A stretch of DNA of 33,343 bases. Source: Nannochloropsis salina CCMP1776. Its lineage: Eukaryota; Sar; Eustigmatophyceae; Eustigmatales; Monodopsidaceae. Numbering within the stretch: the first letter of the stretch is position 1; every line of letters begins with the position of its first letter. A model generated the notes under the pieces. It did not search any database and was not told the origin of the DNA. It saw only the letters and a program-made list of their open reading frames with translations. The DNA is taken from contig SDOX01000133.1 of NCBI GenBank assembly GCA_004565275.1, positions 1-33,343 of the forward strand, given 5' to 3'. The translations under genes were made by a program, and so were the position numbers. Below, in pieces: positions 1 to 5,385 of the stretch.

Positions 1-214
1 AACCCTAACCCTAACCCTAACCCTAACCCTAACCCTAACCCTAACCCTAACCCTAACCCTAACCCTAACCCTAACCCTAACCCTAACCCTAACCCTAACC
101 CTAACCCTAACCCTAACCCTAACCCTAACCCTAACCCTAACCCTAACCCTAACCCTAGCCCTAACCCTAACCCTAACCCTAATCCTAACCCTAGCCCTAA
201 TCCTAACCCTAACC
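1..214. repeat. Telomere, CCCTAA/TTAGGG repeats
   Basis: The + strand begins with a nearly perfect run of AACCCT repeats. Up to about 156 the units are canonical. From there to 214 variant units (AGCCCT, AATCCT) are mixed in, as is usual at the inner edge of a telomere. The C-rich strand reads inward 5'->3', as expected at a left chromosome end, so this is a genuine terminus and not an interstitial tract. Confidence 0.97.
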
Positions 215-367: not shown

Positions 368-3174
368 CTATCCGAAGGTCCAGATGGAGCCTTGTGCCAC
401 CGCAGCGGCAAGCTTCTGTGCATGAGGGGAGGGATAGTTGACGAGGATGCGTTAATTCGAGTGTCGCATGGCAACCCTGGACGAGACATGCACACACGAT
501 GGGACCACCATCGAAGAGAGGGTCCTGGTGGACCTTGTGAAATAGCCTACATGAATTCACGTACCGTGCCATCTGACGACGACGCTATCGACAACCAGGT
601 GCGTGAACCAGCGCCTGTTTGCTCCGTCCAGGTGACGCCCGCGTCGGTGGATGTATAGATAAAGCCATTATCCACCACGGCGGCAAGGTCCTGTGCATAA
701 TGGGATGGGCAATCGATCAGGATAAGTCAGATCGAGGGTCGCATGGCAACCGTGGACAATGGCATGCCACCATCAAAGACAGAAGCACGGTGCTTCTTTG
801 TAATGGGTAACATCCATACACGTACCATGCCATCAGATGACGACGCGATGGAGGTCCAGTTACGGGTACCAGCGGAAAATTGCGGCGTCCAGTCGACGCC
901 CCCGTCGGTCGACGTCCCAAGGAGGCCCCCATACACCACACCGGCAAGGTTCTGTGCATGACGAGATGGGTAGTCGACCAGGATAAGTTAGATCGAGCAT
1001 CGCAGGACGACCTTCGATGAGACATGCACACACGATGGGACCATCATGGGCATGATTCATCCTCCTCTGTGATGGTCCGCATTCACACACGTACCATGCC
1101 ATCCAACGAAGACGCGACCGAGGAATAGTTACGGAAACCAATGATGGTTTGCTCCGTCCAGGTGACCCCCGCGTCGGTGGAGGTATAGATGTAGCCCGGA
1201 CCGACCCCGGCGACAAGGTTCTGTGGATGACGGGATGGGTAGTTGACCAGGATGTGTCAGGTCGAGTGTCGCAGAGCGACCCTGCACGAGACATGCACAC
1301 ACGATGGGACCACCATCGAAGACAGGGGGGTGGTGCATATTGTGTAATGGCTTGCATCCACGCACGTACCGTGCCATTTGATGAGGACGCGATGGCCTGC
1401 CAACTACTGGAACTAGCGTTGGTTTGCTCCGTCCAGGTGACCCCCGCGTCGGTGGAGGTATAGATGTAGCCTGGATTGACCACGGCGGCAAGGTTCTGTT
1501 ATGATGGGATGGCTAGTGCGTGAGATCGAGCGTCGCAGGGCGACCCTGGACGAGACATGCACACACGATGGGACCGTCATCGAAGAAAGGGGCATGGTGC
1601 ACCTTGTGCAAAGTCCTCCATCCAAGCACGTACCATGCCATCAGATGACGACGCGATTCCGTTCCACTGACGGGAGCCAGCGGCGGTTTGCTCCGTCCAG
1701 GTGACGCCCGCGTCGGTCGATTTATAGATGGAGCCATTATACACCACGGCGGCAAGTTTCTGTACATAACAGGATGGGTAGTTGACCAGGATGCGTCAGA
1801 TCGAGCATCGCATGGCGACCTTAGACGAGACATGCACGCACGATGAGATCATCATCGAAGAGAGGGGCATGGTGCACCCTGTGAAATGGCCGGCATCTAC
1901 ACACGTACCGTGCCATCGGACGAGGACGCGATCGACCTCCAGTCACGGGAACCAGCAGCGGTTTGCTCCGTCCAGGTGTTGGTCGGAGCCGCCGTGGGCT
2001 GCATTGTAGGCTGCATCGTAGGCTGCATCGTCGGTGCCGGCGTGGGCTGCATTGTCGGCGCCACGGTCGGAGCCGCCGTGGGCTGCATTGTAGGCTGCAT
2101 CGTAGGCTGCATCGTCGGCGCCATGGTCGGAGCCGGCGTGGGCTGCATTGTCGGCGCCACAGTCGGAGCCGCCGTGGGCTGCATTGTAGGCTGCATCGTA
2201 GGCTGCATCGTCGGCGCCATGGTCGGAGCCGGCGTGGGCTGCATTGTCGGCGCCACGGTCGGAGCCGCCGTGGGCTGCATCGTGGGTGGGAGTGTCTTGG
2301 GCACAACCCCCTCATACACACTGAAATCAGGGTCGAAGATGAAGGGCGTGCACACTGCGACGCAGCAAAAGCACTGGCGGGTTACGGTATTCCAGCTGAA
2401 GAAGAAAGGCGTCTCTTGTCCCGCATTGAGAGAGCAATATTCATAACAAGCATCGGGGGTATCGATGGATTGGAGTTGTCGGTCTTGAGGATGGCTTGGA
2501 GCCGCCTTGTCCTGATGCATGTCGGTAGGAGAGGGCACCGAGAGACGGCGGTCTTGGAAAGGGGCTAGTCGCCCTCCTTGAGAGAATCGCTGTCCCGCAC
2601 CAAACAGCATAAATGGCTCCGCGGGATTGGTTGTGGGAACTGGCGTCGGCGCGCAAGTTGCAGCGTTTTTAGAGCTCGAGTAACGCACGTTTACCGTTGC
2701 GGACTTGGCCAGTGGCGTGATGCACGAGGCCCCTGTGCCATTCACTGGATAGGCGAAAGCATTTAACCGTAATGACTCAGGGGCGCAGTCATCAGCCTTC
2801 ACCTTGACGCGGAAGCGGCGTTTTCCGCCCTTACGCTTGGTGAATGCAATGTTGAGCCAGTAGATCACAGTCGTTCCATCCGCATTTTTAACCATTTCTG
2901 GAGAGGTAAAGGGTTTCGGGGATGGGCGCATCGCTATTCGCTCTACGGATAAGCCGTTTGGGAGATTAACTTGGAACTCCAGGTTGTCGATGGGGTCTTT
3001 GCTGGTCAAGGTAATGGTTAGCCTGGCCTGGCCCTTGCCTGCAAGGATGCCGTGTTTAGCGTTCGGCCTAGCCTTGGCCTTGAGGAAGAGGCCTGGACAA
3101 TCTTGAGAGACGGTGGTGATAATGCTTGCTAAGCCCAGAAGGGCGACAAGGAGGATATCAAAGAGATGAGCCAT
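368..3174 (-). CDS. Secreted beta-propeller protein, one blade per exon
   Basis: Seven exons: 1909-3174, 1634-1759, 1370-1495, 1095-1220, 826-951, 565-690 and 368-415, about 647 residues. Exon 1 starts at an ATG with a signal peptide (about residues 1-23), then a domain of about 140 residues that I do not recognise, a Cys-rich module ending CFCC (about 240-290, possibly PAN/WSC-like), a Pro/Thr stalk (about 295-398) and a half blade. Exons 2-6 are each exactly 126 bp and each encodes one 42-residue blade of the type LAAVV..GYIYTSTDAGVTWTEQ, a BNR/Ycf48-like propeller repeat with Asp-box character. The last exon supplies KLAAAVAQGSIWTFG and a TAG. All introns are phase 0, start GTACGTG on the minus strand and end in CAG (most often CACAG, also TACAG and AACAG). 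The frame is open in every exon. The protein is probably extracellular or wall-associated; its ligand is unknown. The blade sequence resembles repeats common in bacteria, so an origin by transfer is possible but unproven. Confidence 0.85.
416..1908 (-). repeat. Tandem exon-intron units, about 270 bp, six introns
   Basis: Introns at 416-564, 691-825, 952-1094, 1221-1369, 1496-1633 and 1760-1908 (149, 135, 143, 149, 138 and 149 bp) alternate with 126 bp exons, giving a period of about 260-275 bp. The introns are visibly copies of one another: all share the 5' splice context GGCAYG|GTACGTG, a central block containing CCATCGTGTGTGCATGTCTC or close variants, and the 3' end CAG. Intron lengths vary by a few bases while the exon length never does, which is the pattern of selection on the coding units. 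Confidence 0.9.
1985..2290 (-). repeat. Pro/Thr-rich coding minisatellite, 96 bp unit
   Basis: Tandem units begin at about 1985, 2069, 2165 and 2261 on the + strand (spacing 84, 96 and 96 bp), a 32-residue unit with one 28-residue variant. On the coding strand they read as PTMQPTAAPTVAPTMQPT-like peptide. This is a flexible, probably O-glycosylated stalk between the Cys-rich module and the propeller of the gene at 368-3174. Confidence 0.9.
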
Positions 3175-5385
3175 AATTTAATTGGTGGAACTGCGGTTGT
3201 ATTGGCCAGTGTAGATTGATTTTGAAGTGTGCGACGGCTTGACCTATAAATGGGCAATATGATTCGAAAGATTACACAGATCATGAGTTATACAGCTATA
3301 AGCATTGTCACATTGGTCTTGGTAGTTCCTACGTAGGACAGAGACATCACAAGAAAGCCTATCACGCTTGATTGCATTTGAGTGCATGCTGCTCCGGTCA
3401 GGAAGAATGTAGCAGTGCATCGTTGCCAAGAGACTACGGGCCATTATTAACGACCGTAGGGCACACCTCGACAGGCAATGTGAAAAGCGAGAATAAGATT
3501 CATGCGTCAAGAGTCCAGAATCATTTCAATTGGATCATTTCCGACTCTCAGGAGAAGCGATGTAGAGCATTACTTCTGTGTGTGGCTTTACAACGACATG
3601 TGTTTCTGTCTTCCTCGATTCCGTTGACATGCACGGATGCAGGTCAGAATGTCAGCAGCGCGTCACGCCAGGACAATGAGGGGCCATTACTTTGGATCTC
3701 ATGTTCGTTCTTCAACAGAGAGTATGAAGTGGAAGAGCAAACCGAGTGCATGACACCGACTTATCAACTTTATGGGCGTCCAGTGCTGAAGCCCATAATA
3801 ATCATCGATGTTGAATGAGCTCCGATCCTCGGAGGAGAGCGAGTTAGGTAGGTCTAATGTGTGGCTTAAAGATGACAAGTATGTCTCTAATGCCCGATTT
3901 CGTCGTTATCCACGGGATTCAAGTCAGGATATCGTCAGTAGTAAGTCATGAAAACCAGGCGCCCTTGCCAATGTGCTCCTGAGCATCCTTTAAAAAAGAA
4001 TTTGGAAAGCAATGGGCTTCGTGGCGTCGCGGAAGCCCATAAACATACGGTCATCGGAGAAGAGGCACGTGGCACGTGTTCGTTTTAAGAAGGAACGCCA
4101 GTGCACATCATGTGCTCTTCATCGAGTGTTTTCGTGAAGTTTTTTTCAAGTACATGAATATCAAGGACCGTACATTGCAGATTCAGTTTGAGACATTGCT
4201 TGATGAGCGTCCGAGTCGGAGGCCTGCAAACATGAGTACTGAACAATCTCCGATCCTCGGAGAAGAGGTCGTGCACATGGTCGTTCCATGAAGCAACGCC
4301 ATTGCGTATAGTGTGCGCTTCGCCAAGAACTTTTCGTCAGGTGACAGCTCGAGCACAGGGAGATCCCTTAGAGTCCATTACACTTTGTAAATCCAAACGA
4401 ATATTCCGATTTAATCCACCACAGTACCATTCACGTACGAACGCAGCTTTTACTCCACTTGACAGGCGAGAAACGACAATCGCCGTCCTATTCGTTAACA
4501 GTACCGGCATGCTAGCTTTTCAAATGTCATCACCAACGCGAACAACCACGTGACCGTCAGTGTTTGGGGCGTCTTACTGAAGCGGCCGGGGTTAAGTGCC
4601 TACCTGTCTGCGCTGTGCGTATACAATTGAAATGGAAGGAGCAGACATGAATTGAATGAAGGTAAGTATACGATGACCTCGTGTGGGGTGTTTAGCATTC
4701 CTTACAAAGGGCGCAAAGACATCTTCGGCTCGTGCCATCATATCCCGATAAAATTGCCCTCACTGATTATGCTGCTTTCGTCTATTAAGAAAGATCCAGT
4801 ACACTAAAACAGCTCTTCAACATCATAATAATAGACCGTGGTCAGGTCTTATAGCGCTTGCTTGACACGATGCCTGTGAGTGTCAAGCGAACCATAGCAT
4901 TGCATAGGCTTTCAGGTAAGTTTGGTAATCGTGAGAGAGAATTATTTCCGTGCATCTTTTATATACCGGGAGGCTTATAAACCAAAATCGGACTGCAACT
5001 GCCGTACTACTGATCTTTGAGGATGTTAAACTGGAAAAGCCGCAGCAAAGCGGCTGGTAGCCCTCTACTTCGGCATCTAGTCCTTTTAGCAATACGTAAT
5101 GTGAATCATGACGAAAGAAGAAGTATGGCTGATTGAAGAGTAGATAACGGAGAAGAAGAAGGGCTGAGTAAAAGAGAGAGGGCGGACAAAGGCGGGAGGA
5201 AGTGGGAGGGGAGGGAGGCAACTCGTAAGCCACACCTGAGCTGCTCATCCATTGAAAGACTTGTTCTTACATCACTCACTGAATTGTTGTAGAGGAAAGG
5301 CTTCCCCAAGAAAAAAGATATGCGCCAAAAGAACGAAGGGAAATAACAAGGAGGAGGGGTTAAGAAGGGAAAAGCCCAAAAAAAA
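3175..5385. other. Gene-free subtelomeric stretch
   Basis: I see no convincing gene here. The longest frame (3372-3818, + strand) has no ATG at its 5' end, no recognisable domain, and overlaps degenerate repeats. From about 3270 to 4310 the sequence is made of decayed repeats (see separate entry). From 4310 to 5130 I see nothing recognisable. From 5130 to 5385 the + strand becomes strongly purine-rich up to the start of the left duplication copy. The promoter of the propeller gene should lie just right of 3174. Confidence 0.6.
3270..4310. repeat. Degenerate subtelomeric tandem repeat, four units
   Basis: The anchor GATCCTCGGAGGAGAG or close variants recurs at about 3541, 3820, 4047 and 4248 (spacing about 279, 227 and 201 bp). 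Flanking words also recur: GAAGCCCATAA precedes the anchors at about 3790 and 4032; GTGTGGCTT follows at about 3580 and 3860; and GGTCAGAATGTCAGCAGCG near 3642 pairs with a diverged form near 3396. The units are too diverged to define edges by eye. Confidence 0.55.

Follow-up and report, generated by a model that had tools for sequence, protein, structure and literature searches.

What kind of gene gives each repeat of its protein an exon of its own, always of the same length, and what could such a gene do beside a telomere? The question is raised by positions 368–3174 of contig SDOX01000133.1 from the eustigmatophyte alga Nannochloropsis salina CCMP1776 (contig C23 in our numbering). We analyzed this gene within a window of 33,343 bp that starts the contig, and in the setting of the 26.5-Mb, 103-contig genome. 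It lies on the minus strand and is read leftward to the telomere repeat, with its stop codon ~150 bp from the inner end of that repeat. We consider it fairly probable, judging from sequence, that the gene belongs to a family encoding secreted recognition or adhesion rings, arranged with an exon per blade, which would have diversified through gain and loss of repeats combined with selection.

A probable beta-propeller gene with one repeat per exon

All five internal exons of the C23 gene are exactly 126 bp long, open, and in phase 0, and all six introns are of the GT-AG type, starting with GTACGTG and ending with CAG (Table 1). Remapping returned exactly the five 126-bp phase-0 exons, the coordinates, and the counts of the original prediction. 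That the introns are copies of one another, as it had also claimed, is borne out by their shared borders and by a pairwise identity of 70–84% (exon pairs, 67–80%). Because the exon phase is symmetric, units can be gained or lost in frame.

The 126-bp repeat is an Asp-box (BNR) unit (Pfam search, PF02012, E 1.5e-11, 42.9 bits at a cut-off of 27), and a STDAGVTW-type Asp-box motif (SxDxGxxW) is present in each of the five internal exons. Scores for the Ycf48 family (PF14870, PSII_BNR, 19.2 bits vs 27; NF010237, 21.9 vs 326) and for the sortilin-type family (26.3 vs 33) stayed under their cut-offs. The N-terminal module had no Pfam family above cut-off, and the Pfam list for the C23 protein contained no WD40, NACHT, leucine-rich repeat (LRR), or ROCO entry. 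The published topology of Asp-box propellers puts STDAGVTW in the loop that joins strands 3 and 4, and assigns function to the variable top face and structure to the bottom face (PMC2716378, in part). With the Asp-box in the strand 3–4 loop, the intron would fall in the strand 1–2 loop, and each 126-bp exon would carry strands 2, 3, and 4 of a blade together with strand 1 of the blade that follows. The earlier description of one blade per exon stands in that each exon holds one blade's worth of sequence, which by this topology would be shifted by one strand.

The two ends of the gene appear to complete the ring. The half-repeat of exon 1 (NTWTEQTAAGSRDWRSIASSSDGT) would supply the outer strand (strand 4) of the ring-closing blade, and the terminal exon (KLAAAVAQGSIWTFG) its strands 2 and 3. 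Homology and these complementary half-repeats point to a closed ring of four-stranded blades. Since the first and last exons share one blade, n internal exons would correspond to n + 1 blades, that is, six for the five internal exons of C23.

Table 1. Coordinates of the C23 gene and of the adjoining telomere repeat in the window
Feature	Positions	Strand	Description
Telomere repeat (CCCTAA)n	1..214	none	start of window
Terminal exon	368..415	minus	48 bp, 15 codons KLAAAVAQGSIWTFG + stop
Intron 6	416..564	minus	149 nt
Internal exon	565..690	minus	126 bp
Intron 5	691..825	minus	135 nt
Internal exon	826..951	minus	126 bp
Intron 4	952..1094	minus	143 nt
Internal exon	1095..1220	minus	126 bp
Intron 3	1221..1369	minus	149 nt
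Internal exon	1370..1495	minus	126 bp
Intron 2	1496..1633	minus	138 nt
Internal exon	1634..1759	minus	126 bp
Intron 1	1760..1908	minus	149 nt, GTACGTG..CAG
Exon 1	1909..3174	minus	signal-peptide-like start (by eye), N-terminal module, Pro/Thr-rich linker, half-repeat
Half-repeat NTWTEQTAAGSRDWRSIASSSDGT	1909..1980	minus	24 residues, 3' end of exon 1
Minisatellite of the Pro/Thr linker (stalk)	1997..2280	minus	96-bp in-frame coding minisatellite, PTMQPTAAPT, inside exon 1
N-terminal module	2311..3105	minus	~265 residues, inside exon 1

Farther along the window (13000–33343), runs of (CCCT)n or (GAGG)n are numerous and read as SLPP repeats in open frames; they are probably intron or spacer microsatellites.

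Two exon-per-repeat types near contig ends

Genome searches with the 126-bp repeat, whose counts are lower bounds and exclude a weak intronless match on C71, found it at at least 10 loci: C23, C26, both ends of C70 (C70L and C70R), C78, C84, C4, C7, C41, and C6. Such recurrence speaks against a chance layout. The near end of each of the ten arrays lies 0–8.0 kb from a contig end. The exon-intron layout is kept at 9/10 loci; C4 is cut by the contig end, and C6 holds fragments only. Nine loci were modelled (C6 excluded), and at the eight where internal exons could be counted (n = 39) their lengths were 126 bp (31 exons), 127 bp (4, all in C41), 120 bp (2), 144 bp (1), and 124 bp (1). A terminal exon of 48 bp with a stop is present at 6/8 loci; that of C70L has 36 bp, apparently following a frame change, and C41 ends in a stretch without a stop. 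The open arrays of C84, C23, and C78 have 4, 5, and 6 internal exons and would accordingly form 5, 6, and 7 blades. At C23, C26, C70L, C84, and C4, the N-terminal module and the half-repeat lie in a single open frame. C78 has an N-terminal part different from that of C23, and in the stretches examined no N-terminal-module exon lies directly upstream of C7, C41, or C70R. The length of the Pro/Thr stalk differs among paralogs. Introns of the nine loci resemble one another (mean identity 75% between and 80% within loci), so one ancestral intron was probably multiplied together with the repeat; two more intron-like stretches occur on C25 and C4.

The N-terminal module defines a large gene family: it matches 63 places across the contigs, 23 of which were examined individually. 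What follows it varies: collagen-like sequence (C37), SBBP, Hint, lipase-like (by eye), or Cys-rich domains, and repeat arrays. Intronless SBBP propellers follow the module on C87 (PF06739), C25, and the right end of C78, and a Hint domain does so on C66 (PF14623). On C71 (L148), an open reading frame of 620 aa carries intronless Asp-box-like MTSPDGxxWTxRT repeats after the same kind of stalk; the module family is thus also keeping a blade-like repeat without introns. Most of 20 further stretches with the module lie less than ~15 kb from a contig end, with C2 (86 kb in), C66, and C80 as exceptions.

A second repeat behind the module (TSPGIVVKVNLTDFSRVGSLVLQDGENLLYTSVVSGDYAYFG) again occupies one exon each. 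In its five regular arrays (C17, C33, C64, C31, and C49) all 44 internal exons measure 132 bp, all 49 introns are GT-AG introns of 87–89 nt, and the last exon has 43 nt at 5/5 loci. These counts exclude the right end of C78 (6 repeats), C62 (one internal repeat near the contig end), and the irregular arrays of C69, C41, and C37. At C17, C33, and C64 the module is in the first exon, in one open frame with the 132-bp repeat, and at C31 and C49 a module, possibly linked to the array, lies ~2.5 kb upstream on the same strand. The 132-bp repeat has 107 matches in the genome; those on C1, C7, C44, C46, C75, and others are known from the match list alone. Among loci with more than one match and a known contig size, arrays lie less than ~10 kb from a contig end in 11/11 cases (C7, C17, C31, C33, C37, C41, C49, C62, C64, C69, and the right end of C78); two partial matches (C70 and C78 left) were not counted.

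The 132-bp repeat is probably another propeller, given its length, its array sizes, and bacterial look-alikes. The regular arrays hold 6, 6, 6, 13, and 13 internal exons, which together with one closing repeat would give 7, 7, 7, 14, and 14 blades if the repeat forms a propeller. At roughly double the size of a seven-blade ring, the 13-exon arrays of C31 and C49 (L150, L152) may encode a double propeller. A Pfam match of this repeat to Urm1 (25.8 at a cut-off of 21.8) was taken as spurious. No similarity was detectable between the 132-bp and the 126-bp repeat (BLASTP E 0.83) or between their introns (local score 17; shuffled mean 14.0, SD 2.1). With no relation detected for either repeats or introns, exon-per-repeat arrays probably arose twice.

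Reading frames and borders make it likely that the arrays are spliced. In the predicted frame 30/31 exons of 126 bp are stop-free, and the other two frames contain stops in 12/31 and 26/31; for the 132-bp exons the corresponding numbers with stops are 0/44 in the predicted frame and 44/44 and 40/44 in the others. Neither modal unit length (275 bp for the 126-bp type and 220 bp for the 132-bp type) is divisible by 3; without removal of the introns the frame would be lost. Across the nine loci of the 126-bp type, 45/46 introns are GT-AG, and a CTGAC/CTAAC branch-like motif occurs in the last 60 nt of 38/46. Donor sites are nearly uniform within each type (GTACGT in 39/46 for the 126-bp type, GTGAGG in 48/49 for the 132-bp type).

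Variable codons, repeat turnover, and competing explanations

Variability was analyzed in 25 exons of the 126-bp type from five loci (C23, C84, C78, C70L, and C26), with exons of other lengths excluded. Amino acids at codons 7, 10, 26, 27, 31, and 33 differ in 65–88% of within-locus repeat pairs, and L2, D16, W21, and G41 are invariant. Codons 7, 8, and 10 would fall in the strand 2–3 loop and codons 26–33 around the loop between blades, which would lie on the same face as loop 2–3; in the 126-bp type the variable codons should then occupy the functional face and the intron the opposite, structural one. We calculated the ratio of non-synonymous to synonymous differences (pN/pS) at variable codons that had been chosen on the other four loci and tested on the fifth, skipping the C26 stop codon. 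It was 1.93 (C23), 0.55 (C84), 1.33 (C78), 1.65 (C70L), and 1.79 (C26), and at framework codons 0.56, 0.61, 0.35, 0.79, and 0.52, respectively. Comparing adjacent repeats only gave 1.31 at variable vs 0.50 at framework codons, with codons chosen on the same loci. The 132-bp type yielded held-out values of 1.08 (C31), 1.36 (C17), 0.96 (C33), 1.81 (C64), and 1.33 (C49) at variable codons and 0.95, 0.62, 0.79, 0.58, and 0.55 at framework codons; counting methods of this kind cannot tell selection from relaxed loops.

Relaxed loops are the core of the explanation that survives best beside ours, namely a structural wall or adhesion protein in which loop codons drift since loops tolerate change and nothing is recognized. 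We regard this as possible, if somewhat doubtful. The variable positions do lie in predicted loops, and relaxed constraint there would account for a pN/pS near or below 1 at 3/10 loci (0.55 in C84 and ~1 in C33 and C31); other genes with the N-terminal module also end in collagen-like or other repeat domains. It accounts less readily for the 132-bp arrays, where pN at variable codons (0.33–0.54) is 4–7x the divergence of the introns of the same arrays (0.066–0.087), or for the fact that nearly every repeat has its own combination of variable codons (25/25 repeats of the 126-bp type and 43/44 of the 132-bp type). Silent changes at the variable codons of the 132-bp type are raised too, so whole-codon replacement or exchange may contribute.

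The original prediction held that intron and blade were amplified together, which fits the origin of the arrays; within loci, the distances between exons now follow those between introns only loosely. Mantel tests between exons and introns reached p < 0.05 in 2/20 cases, with few repeats and low power, and the downstream intron correlates with its exon at rho 0.45–0.70 in 4/5 loci of the 126-bp type. Repeats 1 and 4 of C78 differ at 7/296 positions of their flanking introns vs 30/126 positions of their exons, and such near-identical introns around different exons may serve as shared homology between units. Intron pairs H and 3 and 1 and 4 of C78 are similar, as are H and 4 and 3 and 6 of C70L (L015, L012), which suggests that three-unit blocks were duplicated as a set at C78 and the left end of C70. 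We also considered whether faster divergence of exons than of introns is the rule; this holds at 5/5 modelled loci of the 132-bp type, fails for the 126-bp type, and was dropped for the C23 gene. A dispersed "introner" origin of the introns was rejected: 40 of 66 candidates for one intron and 40 of 54 for the other were scored, and the best matches lie in exon-per-repeat arrays or in fragments. Among the matches listed, these fragments sit on contigs with family members, and no spread of either intron into other genes was seen.

Several results weigh against recognition or adhesion rings shaped by selection. Pairs in which exon divergence exceeds intron divergence make up 7/10 in C23, 6/6 in C84, and 9/15 in C78, and as few as 2/10 in C70L and 1/10 in C26. 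In a PHI-style test for mosaic sequences none of four runs fell below 0.05 (exons p 0.50 and 0.88, units 0.07, introns 0.07). The 132-bp repeat has no propeller family above the Pfam cut-off (LVIVD, 12.5 vs 20.2) and no match in the PDB set up to E 1. Damage affects 5/9 loci of the 126-bp type: the first repeat of C26 contains a stop, the last exon of C70L is shortened, and C70R retains two repeats, with one GC donor site. C41 (stretch L009, 4151–5378) consists of four nearly identical units that share a frame-breaking one-base insertion, and is a dead array that still amplified; its units are homogenized in their exons too (mean difference 0.8%; introns, 5.0%). The C7 array carries a frameshift; it breaks off within an intron, where a short piece of telomere repeat, CCCTAACCCTAACCC, adjoins it (L010 ~4100–4230, C7 ~125,100), which might be left over from telomere healing or from an end fusion. 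Both broken arrays show the same contrast as the intact ones (pN at variable vs framework codons, 0.206 vs 0.022 in C41 and 0.416 vs 0.144 in C7), so the contrast is either inherited or not specific to working genes and by itself does not prove present function.

These damaged and still variable loci are what neutral subtelomeric tandem duplication would leave, that is, satellite-like arrays whose genes are mostly relics. We nevertheless judge this explanation unlikely, since 44/44 of the 132-bp and 30/31 of the 126-bp exons are open in frame, the regular arrays have the sizes 6/6/6/13/13 that whole rings would have, and codons chosen for low variability show 2 combinations in the 44 repeats of the 132-bp type vs 43 at variable codons. 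An alternative-splicing device that skips exons to make many isoforms is improbable: internal exons of intact loci are phase-symmetric, and brown-algal exon-per-repeat ROCO genes have splice variants (PMC11378527, in part), but the almost uniform donors give no sign of regulated choice and regular array sizes suggest that whole rings are used. The claim that any exon can be skipped stands as far as frame symmetry goes; a ring must also close, and the five regular 132-bp arrays keep 6 or 13 exons.

Secreted or surface recognition or adhesion proteins appear the most likely role of the family. In the mechanism that we propose, the secreted protein would combine the shared N-terminal module, a Pro/Thr-rich stalk, and an Asp-box (BNR) beta-propeller with one 42-residue repeat per exon, and complementary blade parts in the first and last exons would let the ring close for any n. 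Frequent recombination is expected at chromosome ends. There, recombination among similar introns would gain, lose, and homogenize exon-intron units while selection would keep a few codons per repeat diverse, and binding faces could be reshuffled blade by blade. Secretion, as well as recombination and selection as the causes, is what we infer from these patterns. A more far-reaching proposal, which we advance tentatively, is a telomeric diversity system of secreted modules and exchangeable cassettes: at least two repeat types, with homogenized introns, would have been split into exons independently and faces rebuilt exon by exon, with half-repeat end exons preserving ring closure, yielding an immune-like or self/non-self repertoire in a single-celled alga.

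Relatives and comparison with known systems

In 84,980 prokaryote genomes scanned, 182 stretches related to the 126-bp repeat were confirmed, and the analysis continued with the 80 best of them (76 loci). These belong to Patescibacteria, Planctomycetota, Nitrospirae, Verrucomicrobia, and other groups; the top one (L026) shares 70% identity over nearly the whole query. In 54/76 bacterial loci, a single listed open frame spans four or more repeats, which hence have no intron between them, in agreement with the original statement that bacterial relatives are intronless. Position-wise variability is correlated between bacterial and algal repeats (Spearman 0.54, p 4.5e-4, 38 positions, leaving out four positions used to filter blades; 208 blades, 34 proteins; unfiltered, 0.60 with 461 blades from 54 proteins). 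Bacterial Asp-box propellers resemble the algal ones in the 42-residue repeat, in their variable positions, and, in L027 and L030, which were examined individually, in the same closure by half-repeats. They differ in having their repeats in one open frame and, in L027 and L030, seven blades. The simplest reading of the sequences is that the repeat was transferred from bacteria and that introns were gained afterwards. Relatives of the 126-bp type also occur at 30 loci on viral contigs, and the plasmid collection held two matches (40% and 27% identity); the phage collection held no match for the 132-bp type.

Among eukaryotic systems, the arrays would function much as ROCO and NWD genes do, but they are not members of these families: fold, the rest of the protein, and location differ. 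Exon-per-repeat receptor genes of brown algae gave rise to a 2012 paper by Zambounis that reportedly asks in its title whether brown algae have adaptive immunity. Brown algae, which host the ROCO genes, probably belong to the same wider group (ochrophytes) as the alga studied here. Of two light-harvesting proteins of this genome compared with the PDB set, one is closest to fucoxanthin chlorophyll a/c proteins and the other to LHCI chains of entry 9vfj, which suggests an ochrophyte-type alga. The NWD/HNWD proteins of fungi are intracellular NACHT proteins. Their repeats are WD40 units of 126 bp and 42 residues (PMC12222747, in part); four selected codons flank conserved residues in pairs, and 69 repeats show 55 combinations (PMC1805685, in part). 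Genes such as het-d and het-e share with our arrays the 42-residue repeat, changes in array size, and a concerted framework with a few codons that are selected there and putatively here; they differ in that the repeat is WD40, not Asp-box, and the passages concerned mention no intron per repeat (PMC1805685, PMC12222747). The pairing of codons recurs here: codons 31 and 33 flank W32, which is mostly conserved.

The closest counterpart in gene layout corrects the original prediction, which knew of no described algal gene of this kind: brown-algal ROCO genes encode one LRR per 72-bp phase-2 exon, with four positively selected sites and splice variants (PMC11378527, in part). In the ROCO LRR (and NB-TPR) genes, as here, exon length and phase are constant with one repeat per exon, and sites under selection, putative ones in our case, lie on the probable binding face (PMC11378527). 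Unlike the stalked propellers described here, with 126-bp phase-0 and 132-bp phase-2 exons, the ROCO repeats are LRR horseshoes in GTPase proteins, and the genes are mostly dispersed over scaffolds, whereas our arrays stand at contig ends (PMC11378527).

Other propellers offer partial parallels. Blade numbers of highly repetitive WD40-like propellers have peaks at 7 and 14, and in the silk-moth DPP10 propeller one blade was doubled through amplification of a single exon (PMC9218822, in part). The latter shares the amplified single exon with our arrays; unlike them, it is a diverged propeller to which a single copy was added instead of a whole array. Ycf48/HCF136 and sortilin-type proteins share the Asp-box motif in their blades, but C23 scores under the cut-offs of these families. 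The open-access literature yielded no propeller gene with one blade per exon and, among the matches listed, no such telomere-linked family in algae. Exon-per-repeat hypervariable recognition arrays as such are known, and what seems new is their combination with apparent ring closure by the end exons, two repeat types, and a location near chromosome ends. Here the exon-per-repeat logic of brown algae is found in different repeats and, within a single small genome, at least two times. Unlike open LRR arrays, a ring has to close, and the end exons appear to satisfy this constraint.

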